IMG/VR virus record: IMGVR_UViG_3300020596_000124
Coordinates: 1-20,004 of that record
From: a virus
Strand: one strand, 5' to 3'
Length of the DNA: 20,004 nt
Below are positions 5,944-20,004 of the stretch, in pieces. The position numbers and the translations under genes are program-made. Within the stretch, counting starts at the first letter, position 1, and each line of letters begins with the position of its first letter. Under the pieces are notes generated by a model. It worked only from the letters and a program-made list of their open reading frames with translations. It searched no databases and was not told where the DNA came from.

Positions 5944-6104
5944 TTGGTCTCCTCCTTCTTCGGTTGCTTCTCGGGCGCGCCAATCGCTCGCCGCATCATG
6001 CGTTGGAATACCTCCTGGAGCGCCTCCGCTCTACGGTCCGCTATGTCACACATCGTGCGGATGGCGTTGTCGTAGTCCTCCTTCGTGCTCTTGTCTTCGC
6101 TCAT
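5940..6104 (-). CDS. Hypothetical protein, 54 aa, helical
   Basis: The reading frame is open further upstream, but the start is placed at ATG 6104 (MSEDKSTKEDYDNAIRTMCD). There AAGGAGA sits six bases upstream and the ATG overlaps the previous stop (ATGA). The product is charged and helical with a Lys/Glu/Pro-rich tail. No recognised family. Confidence 0.55.
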   Translation of the reverse strand: MSEDKSTKEDYDNAIRTMCDIADRRAEALQEVFQRMMRRAIGAPEKQPKKEETK

Positions 6105-6403
6105 TTGGTCTCCTTCATTCTCACTTGGTGCCGGTGCCACATATGGCTCGCCAGCTGTTTACCTCCCGGCAGCATCTCGCTGCACTTGGGGCACTCGTGC
6201 GACCACTGGAGCTGGCCCCAGCCCTGCGCGGTAATTAGCAGGTCATGCGCGTACGTCTGGTTATTGTGCGTCACTGGCCGAAACACGTAGTACGCCCCGC
6301 CCTCGTACTGGATGCTCTTACAGTTGCGCCCGGCCTCGAATTCATCGCTGAAGCCCTCAGGTGTCATCGTCGGCTTTAACTTGAGTTTGCGTAGGCTCTC
6401 CAC
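6101..6403 (-). CDS. Protein with C2H2-like zinc finger, 100 aa
   Basis: The C-terminal third reads CPKCSEMLPGGKQLASHMWHRH, which fits a C2H2 finger (CxxC, 12-residue spacing, HxxxH), a common nucleic-acid-binding unit. The N-terminal part contains YYVFRPVTHNNQTYAHDLLIT, probably beta. The start is a GTG at 6403 with AGGGAGA seven bases upstream, giving a 47-bp overlap with the preceding gene. An alternative is ATG at 6367 (MTPEGFS), with an 11-bp overlap but a weaker ribosome site. Function unknown; DNA binding is an inference. Confidence 0.6.
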   Translation of the reverse strand: MESLRKLKLKPTMTPEGFSDEFEAGRNCKSIQYEGGAYYVFRPVTHNNQTYAHDLLITAQGWGQLQWSHECPKCSEMLPGGKQLASHMWHRHQVRMKETK

Positions 6404-6899
6404 TCGTCGTTCTCCCTTCAGTGATTAAGGCCGTCTCGTACTTTTTGAGCTCGGCCATCAGCAAGCTCCTGACCCGTGGGTTGAGCAACGAAGCCCGCAC
6501 GGTATCACGTATCAGGTCCTCCTCGCTGCCGCCAGCTCGGGTTGCCCCCTTGCCGGTCAGCCCCTCGAGCTCGGCGCGTGTGCGCAGAATCTGATTGGCC
6601 GCTCCGAGGTCCTCCGTAGCCGCGGCGCGCTCAGACAGCATCTCGGCCTCGGTAACCAGTAGCCGTCGGCGCTCCTCGGGTGTCTGCACAAGCGCGATTC
6701 GGCGCGACGCCTCAGCCGCGTACCGGCTCACCATGTCGGCCCGGATGCCCCACTTCTCGGAGAGGACGTAGCAGGTCCCGCCTCTCACGTAGGCCCCGGC
6801 AATCATGATGCGCTCAAGGTAGTTGACGCGCTCGGCGATGCTGCCCGGGTCGTCGACATAGTCGTAGCCTTCGGCCATCTCAACCTTGCGAGCCGTCAT
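6357..6899 (-). CDS. Putative terminase small subunit / HTH protein (180 aa)
   Basis: The all-helical protein has a likely helix-turn-helix near residues 27-70 (MIAGAYVRGGTCYVLSEKWGI then ADMVSRYAAEASRRI). A long charged helical middle follows, then a C-terminal region (LIRDTVRASLLNPRVRSLLMAEL). Size, N-terminal HTH and helical oligomerisation-like centre fit small terminase subunits, which recognise the packaging site and load TerL. It is about 1.3 kb upstream of TerL in the same operon, not immediately adjacent as in most phages, so this remains a candidate. The alternative is an unrelated phage regulator. ATGA junction with the upstream gene. Confidence 0.45.
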   Translation of the reverse strand: MTARKVEMAEGYDYVDDPGSIAERVNYLERIMIAGAYVRGGTCYVLSEKWGIRADMVSRYAAEASRRIALVQTPEERRRLLVTEAEMLSERAAATEDLGAANQILRTRAELEGLTGKGATRAGGSEEDLIRDTVRASLLNPRVRSLLMAELKKYETALITEGRTTSGEPTQTQVKADDDT

Positions 6900-7072
6900 G
6901 GCAGCGCTCCCTTCGATTCCAGAAACGCCTTCACCTTGCGCAGCGCGTTGCGCTCGATTTGCCCCACGCGCTGATGCGTCACGCCCAGCATCTTGGCTAC
7001 CTCGCGCTGCGAGTAGCAGCGACCCACGCGACCGCCAAGGAACGTTGGCTCGACCTTGGGTGGCTTCTTCAA
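6896..7072 (-). CDS. Sigma-70 region-4-like HTH protein, 58 aa
   Basis: The core YSQREVAKMLGVTHQRVGQIERNALRKVKAFL has the typical pattern of sigma70 region 4 (T/S-EEVA-x-x-LGVTxxRVxQIExxALRKL), the part that contacts the -35 element. No other sigma region is present. The start is set at TTG 7072, where TTGA overlaps the upstream stop and GGAGGAG lies directly upstream. A longer frame upstream is open but would overlap the neighbouring gene by about 80 bp. A stand-alone region-4 protein could act as a transcription co-activator or specificity factor for late genes; that role is inference. Confidence 0.65.
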   Translation of the reverse strand: MKKPPKVEPTFLGGRVGRCYSQREVAKMLGVTHQRVGQIERNALRKVKAFLESKGALP

Positions 7073-7275
7073 GACTCCTCCTTCAGCACTGTCACCATCG
7101 TGACCATAGTGCGCAGCACGGCCCCGCTCGTCCCTGCTCGTTGGGCGGACCACGCCAGAACACAGCAGAGAGCTGTCACTGTATCCTGTGGCTCAAACTC
7201 AGGGTACGACGCTGCTATCTTGACGACAGCGGTCTCGATTATTTTTGCCATGTCGACAATGTCCTCGGCTCTCAC
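7069..7275 (-). CDS. Hypothetical protein, 68 aa
   Basis: Starts with a GTG overlapping the previous stop (GTGA) after AAGGTG. The protein is helical and mildly hydrophobic at its C-terminal half (TVTALCCVLAWSAQRAG then GAVLRTMVTMVTVL). No family, signal peptide or clear membrane segment was recognised. Confidence 0.5.
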   Translation of the reverse strand: MRAEDIVDMAKIIETAVVKIAASYPEFEPQDTVTALCCVLAWSAQRAGTSGAVLRTMVTMVTVLKEES

Positions 7276-7496
7276 GGCCGCACCTTAATTGTGCGGTAGC
7301 CTCGGAGCTTCGTTTGCTGGTTGTCGCTGTCACGGACGCCGTCCCAGAATTCACAGCTAACAACGACACAGCCGGCGGAGCGAAGCATACCGTGAGAGCA
7401 TCTGACGTTGGCGCGGTGCCGAGCTTCTTCTTTGGCGCTCACGGCGGGCACGCCTAGGCAAATGTCGCAGTCACAGCGGAGGCAGCAGTCAGACAT
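7272..7496 (-). CDS. Cys-rich hypothetical protein, 74 aa
   Basis: The start is placed at ATG 7496 (MSDCCLRCDCDICLG), eight bases inside the end of the HNH gene. A longer upstream frame is open but would sit inside the HNH gene. Cysteines at residues 4, 5, 8, 10 and 13, and further along at RCSHG, AGC and SCEFW, suggest metal binding. No family was recognised. Confidence 0.5.
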   Translation of the reverse strand: MSDCCLRCDCDICLGVPAVSAKEEARHRANVRCSHGMLRSAGCVVVSCEFWDGVRDSDNQQTKLRGYRTIKVRP

Positions 7497-7989
7497 GGGC
7501 CCAGTGTTTCCGCGAGAGAACGTCCGAGATGCTCGAGTATGCGACACCGAAGCGTTTGGCCAGCGCTCTCTGCGAAACGCCTCCCATCGCGTAGAGCGTC
7601 CGGATTTCGACGACCTTGGCGTCGGTGAGCTTGGCGAAGTGGTGTCCCTCGCCGGGAGGCGCCGGGTGTTGCACGCCTCGGCCCTTGATTGTCATATCGC
7701 GCATGTTGTCGGCCTGGGTGCCGAGAAAAAGGTGCGCCGGGTTCACGCACAGCTTCACATCACACCGATGCAGAACGCACATGCCCTCCGGTATCGGCCC
7801 GTTGTGAATAGCCCAACTGGCCCGATGAGCGAGAAGCTTCCGGTCGCCAACGCGCAGCTTGCCGTAGCCATCCTTATCCAGCGCCGCCGTCCAAAGCCAG
7901 CAGCAACCCAACCCCTTCACATGCGTGACTGTTGGCCCGTTCTTATCCACTTTGCTCATGAATCTCACAGTGATTTTTCCGTCAATCAT
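7489..7989 (-). CDS. HNH homing-type endonuclease with C-terminal HTH (166 aa)
   Basis: An HNH_3-type nuclease core is clear: LAHRASWAIHNGPIPEGMCV, then LHRCD, then CVNPAHLFLGT and DNMRDM. The catalytic/metal pattern is about H55, H74, N83 and H86. The C-terminus (126-160) reads AKVVEIRTLYAMGGVSQRAL then AKRFGVAYSSISDVLSRKHW, a helix-turn-helix for target recognition. Free-standing genes of this type are mobile in phages. The start is ATG 7989 with GGAAGGAAGGG upstream, overlapping the end of the RusA-like gene by 8 bp. It is paralogous to the HNH gene at 18154-18717, with near-identical core residues but a different C-terminal domain. Confidence 0.88.
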   Translation of the reverse strand: MIDGKITVRFMSKVDKNGPTVTHVKGLGCCWLWTAALDKDGYGKLRVGDRKLLAHRASWAIHNGPIPEGMCVLHRCDVKLCVNPAHLFLGTQADNMRDMTIKGRGVQHPAPPGEGHHFAKLTDAKVVEIRTLYAMGGVSQRALAKRFGVAYSSISDVLSRKHWAHV

Positions 7990-8500
7990 GCTGCCCTTCC
8001 TTCCCGCTGTAGACCCGCACGATAACACACTCATCAGCTCTTTTGCTGACGTTCCACCACAATTGGCTCACGTCCGCATGCTTTGGCGAGTCGTCGACCA
8101 AGAAGTTTAGTCCGGGGATAGCCCTGCCTGCACGCATGCGCGGCGGGCACAGTTTATCGACCGCGGTTTTCGCCCAATCCGCATACTTGTCGGGCTCGCG
8201 AATAGAGAACCGCACGCAGAGCACCTGAGGGCGCCCTGGCAGCGGCTCGCGTCGTGGTGCCGCTTGCATCCGCATCGCGTCCCAGACGGCCTTCTTATAT
8301 TTCGCCAGCTTCCAGTTCACGCCTGCCATGCCGGGGGCCAGCATCTGGTTTTGCGGCTTCGCCAGCGAAAGCGGTAGGATAAAACAAGCTTCCTCCTCTC
8401 CCCACAATCCGGGCCATTCGAAAAACGGCCGCGACCATCGCCTCGCCTCGCCCGCTTTCCACCCGCGTTCGGCCGCGTCGAAAAGAGCTTCCGTGGTCAT
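7982..8500 (-). CDS. rusA: RusA-like Holliday junction resolvase (172 aa)
   Basis: The C-terminal half matches RusA: an acidic run REPDKYADWAKTAVDKL (D104, D108, D115), then GLNFLVDDSPKHADVSQLWW (D136, D137), then a final strand ECVIVRVY. RusA dimers cut four-way junctions, allowing branched replication intermediates to be packaged. The N-terminal 60 residues are an extension beyond the usual ~120-residue RusA. The start is placed at ATG 8500 (MTTEALF), where ATGA overlaps the previous stop. It shares a near-identical start region with the upstream gene at 8802. Confidence 0.72.
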   Translation of the reverse strand: MTTEALFDAAERGWKAGEARRWSRPFFEWPGLWGEEEACFILPLSLAKPQNQMLAPGMAGVNWKLAKYKKAVWDAMRMQAAPRREPLPGRPQVLCVRFSIREPDKYADWAKTAVDKLCPPRMRAGRAIPGLNFLVDDSPKHADVSQLWWNVSKRADECVIVRVYSGKEGQHD

Positions 8501-15857: not shown

Positions 15858-16411
15858 ACAAACAGGAATTAGAGAACTGGTCGGGCGCGCTCAGTGTCGT
15901 ACTGAGCGGGTTTTTCCAGGCGTGCCAGCACGACCTGGAGGACCAGATGCTGATTATCGCCCTCGCGACAGGCGATCACGGCACCCCCCTACGCGACGCT
16001 GCGCAGGACGCCATCGCGGAGTCGACGGACACGGGCGAAATCGTCACGCTGCGCTACTCCGATGAGGCGTACGGTGTGCTGAGAGGCAGCTGCGAGGATT
16101 GGCGCGCTACGCCGGCATTTGAGGACCTGCACTATTACGGAGGGAACCTGGAGAGGCCCTGGCACGTCGTGCTCAAGCACGAGTTCCGCGAAATGAGCAG
16201 CCTTGAAGGCGAACCGCCGTTTGACCAGGCTCCGCTCTCGCGGGAAGCGAAGCTCGGCGCTGCTCGCGAAACGCTTCAGCTGGCGGCGAGCACGCTGCGC
16301 AAGCTGGGCACGACCGGTGGACACTGCCCTGAGCTCGTGAATGCCGCTGCGGAGGTCGAGTCGATTTTCGACTGGCTGTATTTGCCTAAGCAAGGAGGTC
16401 AGTATGAGTGA
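15854..16411 (+). CDS. Hypothetical protein, 185 aa
   Basis: Starts by ATGA overlap after GAGGAAATAAG. Two parts can be seen: residues 1-110 of mixed structure (LSVVLSGFFQACQHDLEDQM, then EIVTLRYSDEAYGVLRG), and a helical C-terminal half (EAKLGAARETLQLAASTLRK, then ELVNAAAEVESIFDWLYLP). No family or catalytic motif recognised. As part of the early rightward operon that carries the recombination gene it is likely expressed early. Confidence 0.55.
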   Translation: MNKQELENWSGALSVVLSGFFQACQHDLEDQMLIIALATGDHGTPLRDAAQDAIAESTDTGEIVTLRYSDEAYGVLRGSCEDWRATPAFEDLHYYGGNLERPWHVVLKHEFREMSSLEGEPPFDQAPLSREAKLGAARETLQLAASTLRKLGTTGGHCPELVNAAAEVESIFDWLYLPKQGGQYE

Positions 16412-16601
16412 AGAGCTTTTGGGGACGCGCCGGTACACTGTCAGCTACACAGGGGGGGAGTGGGCCCTAATCGTCCGCGCCGCCTCCCTTCAGGGCAAAG
16501 ACCCCTTTAGTTGGCTCCGGCAAGCTAGCGTCCGCGCGGCCAAGGCTAATCTCACGAAGGCTGGGCGTCACTCAGCGCCACTTACACGGAGGTCAGCATG
16601 A
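16404..16601 (+). CDS. Ribbon-helix-helix-like small protein, 65 aa
   Basis: Start ATG 16404 is fixed by AAGGAGG six bases upstream, inside the end of the preceding gene. The sequence RRYTVSYTGGEW could form the ribbon strand, ALIVRAASLQGK helix A and PFSWLRQASVRAAKANL helix B, similar to RHH/DUF1778-type DNA-binding proteins. The tail is basic. The assignment is by pattern only. The gene overlaps the exonuclease-annealase start by ATGA. Confidence 0.5.
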   Translation: MSEELLGTRRYTVSYTGGEWALIVRAASLQGKDPFSWLRQASVRAAKANLTKAGRHSAPLTRRSA

Positions 16602-18157
16602 CGAATTTATCATCAGAGCTTTTGCAGGGCGTAGGGGCTTGTGAGGCCGGGTTGGAATCGCTGCTTCAGGCATCCGTAGACATCAACGAGCGGAAAGCGC
16701 TCCCGGTCAAGCTCGTCGACCTAGCGTCAATCTACTGGAGCGCCTGGCATGCGTCAGCCGACACTGACGTTGGTGCTGCGTTTGAAACCACCATTGCGGC
16801 CGTCTCTCGCATCAGCGGAGGCAGCTCGGTCAACGTCGCTGTCTGTGTTGACTCGCCGCCCTACAAACGCAACGCGATTGCCAAAACATACAAGGCGCAG
16901 CGCGAGGCCTCGCCGCCTATGGCTGTGGAGCAATACCGGCGCACCCAAGAGAGGCTCCGGAAAGATGGCTATCTTGTTTGGAGCTGCAAAGGCTTCGAAG
17001 CAGACGACCTCATAGCCACGGCGGCCGCTCAGCTACGCGCCAAGCACGAAGTGCGCGTCTACAGCGCGGACAAAGACTTGTTGCAGCTCGTCGGCTTTAA
17101 CGTCGTGGTTGTGCGACGCGAGCGAACCGAGGATGGCAGCAGGCTCGTCGATTTCGATGCCGAGGCCGTGAAGGCCAAGATGGGCGTCTACCCGAACATG
17201 CTGCGCGATTTGCTCGCAATGGCCGGAGACAAAAGCGACAACGTTCCAGGAATCCCCGGCGTAGGCCCCGCGAAGGCAGCGGCCCTGCTCATCAAGTACG
17301 GGACGCTGGCCGAGGTCCTGCTTTGTGCCGACGAAATCCCAGGCAAGCTGGGGGAGGCCATCTGCCAAAACGTTGAGCAGGCTTTGCTGAGCCGGCAGCT
17401 CGTAACGCTCTACACCGACGCACCCATCGATGCGCAAGAGGTATTCGCAGAACGAAAAACCGAACCACTCACGGAGAACTACGAAGCCATGGAAGAGACA
17501 CACGAAGCAGAGCCCAAATCCGACACGCAGAACGAGAGACCGAGCGAGCCGCCGCCTGCGCCACACGTGGAGGGCGAGCCGGTGGGCGAACGCCGCACAC
17601 CAACGGCGCCCACTCAAGCGCCGGCTCAAGCGATTGAGTTAGCCCACGCGGCCCCTTGGCAACTTCAGCTTGAGCCTCGGGATTCTAACGGGGCGTGGAA
17701 GCTAGCAAACATGCTTTATAATTCGCGCCTTTATTCGGCATTCTCCTCCCCTGAGGCCATTCTGGCCGTGCTGCTTCGAGGCCGCGCGCTCGGCATTGAT
17801 GCCACGACAGCGCTCTCGTCGTTCCATGTCATCGAGGGTCGGCCGTCGATGTCCGCTGCGCTCATCGTTGGGCTTGTGCTCCGCTCCGGCCTGGCCGAAT
17901 ACTTTGATTGTGTGGAAACAACGGCGGAGGGAGCAGTCTGGACGACCAAGCGTAAAGGCGCGAAGCATGAGGCAAGAAACAGCTTCACGATTCAGAACGC
18001 GCAAGCGGCCGGCCTGGCGGGAAAAGGGAATTGGCTGAAATACACAGCAACGATGTTAAGATGGCGCGCAGGCGTTGAGCTGGCACGGTTCGTTTATCCC
18101 GACGTTGTCTCGGGGATTTTAAGCGTGGATGAGGCTTCAGAAGGAGAGTTAATGTGA
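16598..18157 (+). CDS. Fused FEN-family 5'-3' exonuclease and RecT-like annealing protein (519 aa)
   Basis: One uninterrupted frame with two domains. Residues about 37-285 match the 5'-3' exonuclease of PolA/T5 FEN type: D41 (VDLAS), D85 (CVDSPPYKR), E134/D136/D137 (FEADDLIA), D158/D160 (SADKD), and D211/D214 in GDKSDNVPGIPGVGPAKA, the helix-3-turn-helix region. Residues 286-351 are an acidic, Pro-rich linker. Residues 352-510 resemble RecT-type annealases: LLRGRALGIDATTALSSFHV, IEGRPSMSAALIVGLVL, SFTIQNAQAAGLAGKGNWLK, then ARFVYPDVVSGIL. The exonuclease would make single strands and the second domain anneal them, a job split between two proteins in Exo/Bet and RecE/RecT. GGAGG precedes the ATGA-coupled start. 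Both domain calls come from motifs; the fusion is seen directly. Confidence 0.82.
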   Translation: MTNLSSELLQGVGACEAGLESLLQASVDINERKALPVKLVDLASIYWSAWHASADTDVGAAFETTIAAVSRISGGSSVNVAVCVDSPPYKRNAIAKTYKAQREASPPMAVEQYRRTQERLRKDGYLVWSCKGFEADDLIATAAAQLRAKHEVRVYSADKDLLQLVGFNVVVVRRERTEDGSRLVDFDAEAVKAKMGVYPNMLRDLLAMAGDKSDNVPGIPGVGPAKAAALLIKYGTLAEVLLCADEIPGKLGEAICQNVEQALLSRQLVTLYTDAPIDAQEVFAERKTEPLTENYEAMEETHEAEPKSDTQNERPSEPPPAPHVEGEPVGERRTPTAPTQAPAQAIELAHAAPWQLQLEPRDSNGAWKLANMLYNSRLYSAFSSPEAILAVLLRGRALGIDATTALSSFHVIEGRPSMSAALIVGLVLRSGLAEYFDCVETTAEGAVWTTKRKGAKHEARNSFTIQNAQAAGLAGKGNWLKYTATMLRWRAGVELARFVYPDVVSGILSVDEASEGELM

Positions 18158-18717
18158 GCACGATTCACACCAGGTTCTTTGGCAAATTCAAGGAATCGCC
18201 GTCGTGTTGGGAGTGGTTGGCCTATCGTGACCGCAAGGGGTACGGGAGGTTTATGGTGCCCGGAAGCAAGACGTCGCTAGCTCATCGATTTTCATGGGAG
18301 TTGCATCGCGGGCCAATTCCGACCGGAATGTGCGTCCTTCACAGGTGCGACAACCCGCCATGCGTCAACCCTGCCCATTTATTCCTGGGCACCCTTCAGG
18401 ACAACGTGCGCGATATGATTCAAAAGGGTCGAGGGTCGAACGGAAATAGAGCGATTACTCATTGCCCATCGGGGCATGCGTATAACAGTGAGAACACTTA
18501 TCAGCACAACGGGCGGCGGTCGTGCAAGGAATGCAGTAGGAGCGCCGTGCGTAAGCGGCGCTCTCTCGGCGCTGAACAGGAAAGAGCCCGCGCGCGTGAG
18601 CTCTATCACGCCAATCTAGAAGAGGCGCGCAGGAAGGGGCGAGAGAAGGCGAGGGCGCGATGTGTAAAGAAGCGCTCCACGAAAGGGCCAGACGAGCTCA
18701 CGGATGGTGAAGAGTGA
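18154..18717 (+). CDS. HNH homing-type endonuclease with second Zn site (187 aa)
   Basis: The HNH_3 core LAHRFSWELHRGPIPTGMCV, LHRCDNPPCVNPAHLFLGT and DNVRDMIQKGRG carries H44, H63, N72 and H75. An additional cluster HCPSGHAYNSENTYQHNG then CKECSR (C104, H108, C124, C127) is common in phage HNH proteins. The C-terminus is a long basic helix. Starts with GTG overlapping the exonuclease-annealase stop (GTGA) after GAAGGAG. Paralogue of the gene at 7489-7989. It is probably a mobile free-standing endonuclease. Confidence 0.88.
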   Translation: MSTIHTRFFGKFKESPSCWEWLAYRDRKGYGRFMVPGSKTSLAHRFSWELHRGPIPTGMCVLHRCDNPPCVNPAHLFLGTLQDNVRDMIQKGRGSNGNRAITHCPSGHAYNSENTYQHNGRRSCKECSRSAVRKRRSLGAEQERARARELYHANLEEARRKGREKARARCVKKRSTKGPDELTDGEE

Positions 18718-19235
18718 GCAGCGACATCACTTGCCTGATTCCGGCCCTGTGCGAGGCTCACCGTATCGGCCGCCAGGCTGTGGATAAATGGGGGGACCGC
18801 GAACAGGTGAGGGTCGCCATCGGCGAGCTCGCCGAGCTAATTGCCGAACTCGCTCAGGCCGGGCGCGGCAGACACACCGAGGAGGCCCTAACCGAGGAGG
18901 TGGCGGACGCTCTCATCGTGTTGATGCAGCTCGTCGACATGCAGGGGCCTGCCAATGTGGCCCACGTCATGCTCGGCAAGCTGGCCCGGCTTCAGGGGCG
19001 CATCGATGCGGAGCCGACAATAGCGGCGGAGATTGACGCCCTCGAGGAGCGGCTAATCGCGCGGCACGGCCTCAATTATGGCCAGCTTCGCCATCTGGAG
19101 GGCAAGCCCGACAATCAGAGGCAGCTACTGGCTCTCCTCCACGCCTGGGCCGACAATCCGGACGAGGTGGACCGCGTAATCAGCGGCGTTCCGTACGGTG
19201 CGCGGGCGGTAGCGAAAACCCGTGAATCTGGCTGA
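18714..19235 (+). CDS. MazG-like NTP pyrophosphohydrolase (173 aa)
   Basis: Residues about 25-75 have the all-alpha NTP pyrophosphatase signature: IGELAELIAELAQAG (E38, E41, E45), then LTEEVADALIVLMQLV (E62, D65), the ExxE and ExxD metal sites. Family members hydrolyse (d)NTPs to monophosphates, and phage versions may also lower alarmone or aberrant nucleotide levels. A helical C-terminal extension of about 90 residues (LARLQGRIDAEPTIAAEIDA; RQLLALLHAWADNPDEVDRV) is of unknown role. GTG start, GTGA overlap with the HNH gene. Last gene before a new promoter. Confidence 0.72.
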   Translation: MSSDITCLIPALCEAHRIGRQAVDKWGDREQVRVAIGELAELIAELAQAGRGRHTEEALTEEVADALIVLMQLVDMQGPANVAHVMLGKLARLQGRIDAEPTIAAEIDALEERLIARHGLNYGQLRHLEGKPDNQRQLLALLHAWADNPDEVDRVISGVPYGARAVAKTRESG

Positions 19236-19306: not shown

Positions 19307-19540
19307 ATGAGCAACGCGACAAACACGAAAAAGGAAGGTTCAACGATCATGACCAAATCAGAAAAGAAGCAGGTCGACATTTGGAGTGGCACGCTCCAAG
19401 GCCTAGGAAATGACGCCCGATACTGGGACATGCGTCGCACACACGGGGACTATTCCCCGCAGGTCTATTTGCACCTGAAAGGCTGCGCACGCTACCAAGC
19501 GTCGGGCTCTCAGCCCACCACTAAGGAGCAACATAAATGA
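19307..19540 (+). CDS. Hypothetical protein, 77 aa
   Basis: The first ATG is seven bases after the -10 box (leaderless). A second in-frame ATG 14 codons on (MTKSEKKQVDIWSGTLQGLG) is preceded by GGAAGG some nine bases upstream and could be used from a leadered message. Hydrophilic protein with no recognised domain. ATGA overlap with the DHH gene. Confidence 0.58.
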   Translation: MSNATNTKKEGSTIMTKSEKKQVDIWSGTLQGLGNDARYWDMRRTHGDYSPQVYLHLKGCARYQASGSQPTTKEQHK

Positions 19541-20004
19541 CCAAAATCGATATAGCCAAGTTGCAACAAATCCGACACATCATCACACACGAAAATTGTC
19601 CAGACGGGATCGCGAGCGCCATGATCCTGCGGGACTGCCTGCCGGATGCGGAAGTGACGTTCTGTCAGTACGGTACGGCGCTACATCGCTCGATACAGGC
19701 GCTCCCCGGACAGCTCTGGTGTGACTTCAGTCCCCCCCTGGATCGCGTCCAGGAGTTCCTTGACGTGGGGGCCATTGTGTTGGATCATCACGCCGGACCA
19801 GCGAAGACAGCCACGTTAGAGTTTGAATCACGGGGCCTTGGCGCGTGGGGGCACGAGCCTGGCGTCAGCGGGGCAATGCTAGCGTTCGGCGAAGTCTGGG
19901 TACCATTGAAGCGCAGTGATGATAATCAGGCTGTGGAAGCATGCCTGCTGTCTCACGCCACCCTGGCCGGCATCCGGGACACTTGGCAAATCGATCACCC
20001 GGAC
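19537..20004 (+). CDS. DHH-family phosphoesterase, N-terminal part (3' end outside window)
   Basis: The 156 visible codons carry DHH superfamily motifs: ITHENCPDGIASAMIL (motif I, D23), WCDFSPP (D63) and VLDHHAGP (D83, H84, H85), the metal-binding DHH signature. Later, GIRDTWQIDHPD resembles a conserved GD-x-W segment. Members include RecJ, nanoRNase/pAp phosphatase and cyclic-dinucleotide phosphodiesterases; without the C-terminal DHHA1 region the substrate cannot be chosen. ATGA start after AAGGAG. Confidence 0.8.
   Translation, partial: MTKIDIAKLQQIRHIITHENCPDGIASAMILRDCLPDAEVTFCQYGTALHRSIQALPGQLWCDFSPPLDRVQEFLDVGAIVLDHHAGPAKTATLEFESRGLGAWGHEPGVSGAMLAFGEVWVPLKRSDDNQAVEACLLSHATLAGIRDTWQIDHPD

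Follow-up and report, generated by a model that had tools for sequence, protein, structure and literature searches.

Exonuclease–annealase pairs underlie recombineering, and the way in which the strand is handed over from the nuclease to the annealase is still unsettled. λ Exo, the nuclease that accompanies Redβ, is a PD-(D/E)XK toroid, not a FEN-type enzyme. The λ exonuclease:Redβ stoichiometry has been reported as 1:1; Redβ residues 178–261 bind the exonuclease, W143 and R161 contact the template strand, and mutation of R161 lowers in vivo annealing about 1000-fold (PMC9512822). Redβ that has lost its C-terminus retains annealing but no longer mediates recombination, binding of the exonuclease being one function of this C-terminal domain (PMC5052646).

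The gene described here is a candidate single-chain counterpart of such pairs. It lies in a 20,004-nucleotide stretch of viral DNA (the window; positions 1 to 20,004 of record IMGVR_UViG_3300020596_000124), for which the initial annotation proposed that one 519-residue frame joins a FEN-type nuclease to a RecT-like domain. Translation of the window bears out the frame, which is open on the plus strand from the ATG at 16598 to a stop ending at 18157 and is preceded by a Shine-Dalgarno-like GGAGG (16588–16592, plus strand). A stop or frameshift in the linker, looked for as a sign of two separate genes, was found neither in the window nor in the other 62 distinct fused ORFs described below. According to the ORF list and Pfam and PHROGs searches, the fusion gene overlaps by 4 bases both the stop of a small upstream ORF with no assigned function (16341–16601, plus strand) and the start of a downstream HNH endonuclease gene (18154–18717, plus strand), a layout that resembles an operon. 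Also 3′ of the fusion are a relative of MazG-like pyrophosphohydrolases (18714–19235, plus strand) and the 5′ part of a DHH phosphoesterase gene (19537–20004, plus strand). A second HNH endonuclease gene is present at 7489–8034 on the minus strand, and relatives of the two HNH genes occur in approximately eight other fused loci.

The protein begins with an extension (residues 1–36; 16598–16705, plus strand) that is predicted to be mostly helical, with pLDDT values of 53–65 in residues 1–30; two complete relatives aligned with it begin much nearer the nuclease domain. Two Pfam domains follow, both above cut-off: 5_3_exonuc_N (PF02739, E = 5.8e-25), the resolvase-like N-terminal domain of FEN/PolA-type 5′–3′ exonucleases, at residues 39–196 (16712–17185, plus strand), and 5_3_exonuc (PF01367, E = 1.4e-23), the C-terminal SAM-fold (H3TH) domain, at residues 197–280 (17186–17437, plus strand). 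PHROGs adds a match to the exonuclease family phrog_107, and the related sequences in the PDB are those of PolI, ExoIX/Xni, the Mycobacterium smegmatis FEN and a plant plastid exonuclease. Foldseek comparison of the full-length AlphaFold2 model gave E values of 1e-16 to 1e-18 with ExoIX and PEX1 and 3e-12 with T5 FEN, the nearest folds to the nuclease half being T5 D15, T4 RNase H, Xni and the PolA 5′ nuclease. The acidic set named at the outset (D41, D85, E134, D136, D137, D158, D160, D211 and D214) is complete at exactly these positions, with zero substitutions among the 61–63 family members that cover each of them. The predicted fold and the two-metal acidic set thus place the N-terminal half within the FEN/PolA-type nucleases.

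In the full-length model, two confidently predicted domains are separated by a disordered linker. The acidic, Pro-rich linker that had been proposed is present and predicted to be disordered; its low-confidence core (pLDDT below 50), rich in Pro, Ala and Glu, spans about 50 residues (301–350; 17498–17647, plus strand), slightly fewer than the ~65 first given. Across the family the linker has a median length of 51 aa (range 24–192) and contains 15.7% Ala, 14.4% Pro and 8.9% Glu.

Beyond the linker, residues 353–515 (17654–18142, plus strand) form a predicted RecT/Redβ-type annealase core with no C-terminal tail. PHROGs matches the window protein to two RecT-like families, phrog_4171 (residues 343–515, E = 1.2e-14) and phrog_561 (E = 1.3e-12), and a profile built from 98 C-terminal domains and compared with the whole PDB, at E values up to 1, has λ Redβ177 (7ujl) as its sole match (E = 5.2e-7). 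The AlphaFold2 model of the isolated domain (pLDDT 92) likewise finds 7ujl as its only PDB match below 0.001 in Foldseek (E = 5.8e-5, probability 1.00), with TM-scores of only 0.58–0.61 against Redβ, and a fold search with the full-length model returns FEN nucleases and 7ujl together. The structural comparison suggested for residues 350–519 therefore points to Redβ by two routes, profile and fold. Pfam RecT (PF03837) individually matches 81 of the 98 family C-terminal domains and 35 of the 56 fused proteins scanned but not the C-terminal domain of the window protein itself, whose membership rests on the profile and PHROG matches and on the fold. The residues that contact DNA are also retained: R497, which aligns with Redβ R161, is conserved in 62/62 fused and 47/47 standalone proteins, and W479, which aligns with W143, in 59/62 and 47/47, respectively. 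The equivalent of Redβ K154 is not strictly conserved (R in 44/63, T in 17/63). Homology, fold and contact residues together support the assignment of the C-terminal half as a RecT/Redβ-type annealase core. Among annotated genes the closest relatives, found in Arthrobacter phage Kukla and on plasmids of Acinetobacter, Bealeia and Prescottella, are RecT-like and neighbour a RecE, YqaJ or λ-exo-family nuclease.

The company kept by fused and free-standing annealases differs sharply. The YqaJ exonuclease (PF09588) is encoded in 32 of the 44 records that contain free-standing relatives and in 0 of the 43 fused records (Fisher p = 4e-14). A FEN domain is found in 43/43 fused and 0/44 free-standing records, the second figure being the informative one because the first is true by selection. 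These counts agree with the earlier statement that a FEN nuclease is not the usual partner fold of RecT. DUF3799 (PF12684), another common partner of RecT (PMC8093625), was found in none of the 43 fused records; the partner scan covered YqaJ and DUF3799, so exonucleases of other types could escape it. PolA was likewise found in 0/43, leaving the FEN half without a phage Pol I as companion, and SSB was found in 2/43. As the records are viral fragments without completeness estimates, the absence of a partner is statistical and does not hold phage by phage. Three standalone RecT relatives (L016, L017 and L018) have neither YqaJ nor FEN in their records. A tyrosine integrase is present in 17 of the 43 fused records, and at least some phages that carry the fused gene are thus probably temperate.

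The two groups also differ in what follows the annealase core: a median of 3 residues in 60 fused proteins and of 120 in 79 standalone proteins, with ranges that do not overlap. Because the Redβ core alone carries annealing, the missing tail bears on the recruitment of a partner and not on the kinship of the core. The tail is lacking in just those proteins to which a nuclease is joined covalently, and we infer that the attachment would have taken over the docking role. The architecture looks like a partner replacement, with a FEN nuclease in place of the separate YqaJ-type enzyme.

The same domain pair, which the initial annotation had proposed seeking in other phages, proved to be widespread. 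A search with the C-terminal domain only returned three further fusions, two on viral contigs and one on a Deltaproteobacteria MAG contig, and an alignment of the four recovered approximately 60 more from a scan of viral contigs; an alignment of seven diverse RecT domains was too divergent for scanning. After removal of duplicates there are at least 63 distinct fused proteins, the window's included, a total that is a lower bound. A manual count of contig names puts the number of source metagenomes at about 55. The proteins have a median pairwise identity of 37% and form 40 clusters at 60% identity, and PF02739 and PF01367 were both matched in 56/56 of the members scanned (E ≤ 0.01). In a tree of RecT domains, obtained like the nuclease tree from a short search, the fused proteins are separated from the rest by a single branch (SH-aLRT 89) and the fused label requires one change, as expected of annealases with a single origin, although this branch is without strong support. 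The nuclease tree requires three changes, or two without the odd locus L162. Relatives covering 80% of the query were found neither for any of four fused queries in the annotated phage collection nor for one fused query in the annotated plasmid collection. A0A6J5MUB0, a 462-aa "PIN_53EXO domain containing protein" from an uncultured Caudovirales phage, shares 33% identity over 494 columns with the full-length model and is apparently a deposited member of the family, named only for its nuclease half.

The apparent long N-terminal extensions of the standalone RecT loci L056 and L061 were judged by eye to be GC-rich open stretches ahead of the normal start and not fusions. In locus L162 (IMGVR_UViG_3300009177_000051, 5989–7627), a FEN nuclease that the nuclease tree places close to the fused lineage is followed not by RecT but by a phrog_10048 protein, with an apparent frame change near 7010–7020; standalone relatives begin with the same stretch that straddles this frame change. 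The arrangement may reflect a domain swap and may point to an annealase-like function of phrog_10048, whose homology to RecT is unsupported (hhalign probability 0.2%).

Taken together, the sequence comparisons and models make it likely that the fusion is a single-chain phage exonuclease–annealase recombinase, with both activities assigned to it by inference. Starting from a 5′ end, nick or flap, the N-terminal FEN-type nuclease would remove the 5′ strand. The exposed 3′ strand would then be taken over by the RecT/Redβ-type core at the C-terminus, which would oligomerize on this strand and anneal a complementary one to it. Nuclease and annealase would be held at 1:1 by the flexible linker, as a covalent counterpart of the docking of the Redβ C-terminal domain on λ exonuclease. 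Flaps and RNA primers are the usual substrates of FEN enzymes, for which reason processive end resection by this half is not assured. The FEN half could additionally trim 5′ flaps left after annealing, an activity for which, to our knowledge, λ Exo is not known. In this reading resection would be coupled to annealing within one molecule, and the protein would act in phage replication or repair. The broader proposal, that a widespread class of one-component recombinases combines a flap-type nuclease with an annealase such that one polypeptide resects, anneals and then trims 5′ flaps, seems to us evenly balanced between right and wrong. If true, single-strand annealing would be carried through as far as ligatable nicks, with no need for the separate exonuclease or the docking domain of λ Red and RecET.

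The strongest rival holds that the FEN half is mainly replicative, serving primer and flap removal and Okazaki maturation, and is anchored on the single-stranded DNA of the fork by the RecT half, with recombination secondary. The 5′ nucleases that provide the nearest folds (the T5 D15, T4 RNase H, Xni and PolA types) do serve replication, and PHROGs identifies replication genes, for a DnaB-like helicase and an initiation protein, in the same window. We nevertheless regard this reading as unlikely: no phage DNA polymerase A accompanies the fusion in the 43 records, the nuclease is exchanged with YqaJ beside RecT, in the position of a recombination partner, and is not joined to a polymerase, and the DNA-contact residues of the annealase are conserved.

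Less probable still is that the gene yields two working proteins, an internal start or cleavage in the linker freeing the RecT core beside the full-length chain. Disordered linkers are protease-sensitive, and a weak Shine-Dalgarno-like 4-mer accompanies 33% of the in-frame ATGs in the linkers but 15% of the other linker codons. An ATG with such a motif occurs in the linkers of 31/67 fused loci and, in the window, at about 17489 (residue 298), about 59 residues before the core. With stricter 5-mers there is no clear excess (7.6% against 5.0%), related members are not independent in the motif counts, and Shine-Dalgarno-like motifs are expected in the linker because it is Glu-rich; the case for an internal start that would separate the two halves is thus unconvincing. 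That a chimeric assembly or a missed stop has joined two normal genes had to be considered as the finding began with a single contig, but an artefact is ruled out, for practical purposes, by the at least 63 distinct homologous fusions from about 55 metagenomes, one of which lies on a contig from a bacterial MAG, and by the grouping of the fused C-terminal domains in one tree group (SH-aLRT 89). The single-chain recombinase is thus the reading that we retain.

A natural single-chain version that has a different nuclease fold, lacks the partner-binding tail and is widely distributed would offer a direct test of coupling, since within one protein the length of the linker can be changed, a tail added and the domains separated. 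It may also provide a one-gene recombineering tool in which two proteins need not be matched, and the deposited member that was found calls for a corrected annotation, as its label covers the nuclease half only. The claim that no system of this form has been described holds within the open-licence papers, where no natural exonuclease–annealase fusion was found: the parts are known, and a description of their combination was not found in that literature or in the annotated phage and plasmid collections.

Compared with two-component recombinases (EATR/SynExo), the fusion is one polypeptide instead of two interacting chains, and the PD-(D/E)XK partner of those systems, YqaJ/λ-exo or DUF3799, was not found in the 43 fused records, where the FEN half appears to take its place. 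The RecE/RecT and YqaJ/RecT prophage pairs, which include the nearest standalone relatives, share the RecT-like annealase but have separate genes, a YqaJ-type nuclease and a long C-terminal tail on RecT. T5 D15, T4 RNase H and Escherichia coli ExoIX share the FEN-type fold but stand alone, with no fused annealase. λ Exo/Redβ similarly combines a 5′–3′ exonuclease with an annealase of the RecT/Redβ fold, the annealase core being the homologous part, but distributes them over two polypeptides and retains in Redβ the C-terminal Exo-binding domain that the fusion lacks. A functional parallel may be provided by phage T7, in which gp6, a stand-alone FEN-type 5′ nuclease, works with gp2.5 as a FEN-like exonuclease and an annealing protein.
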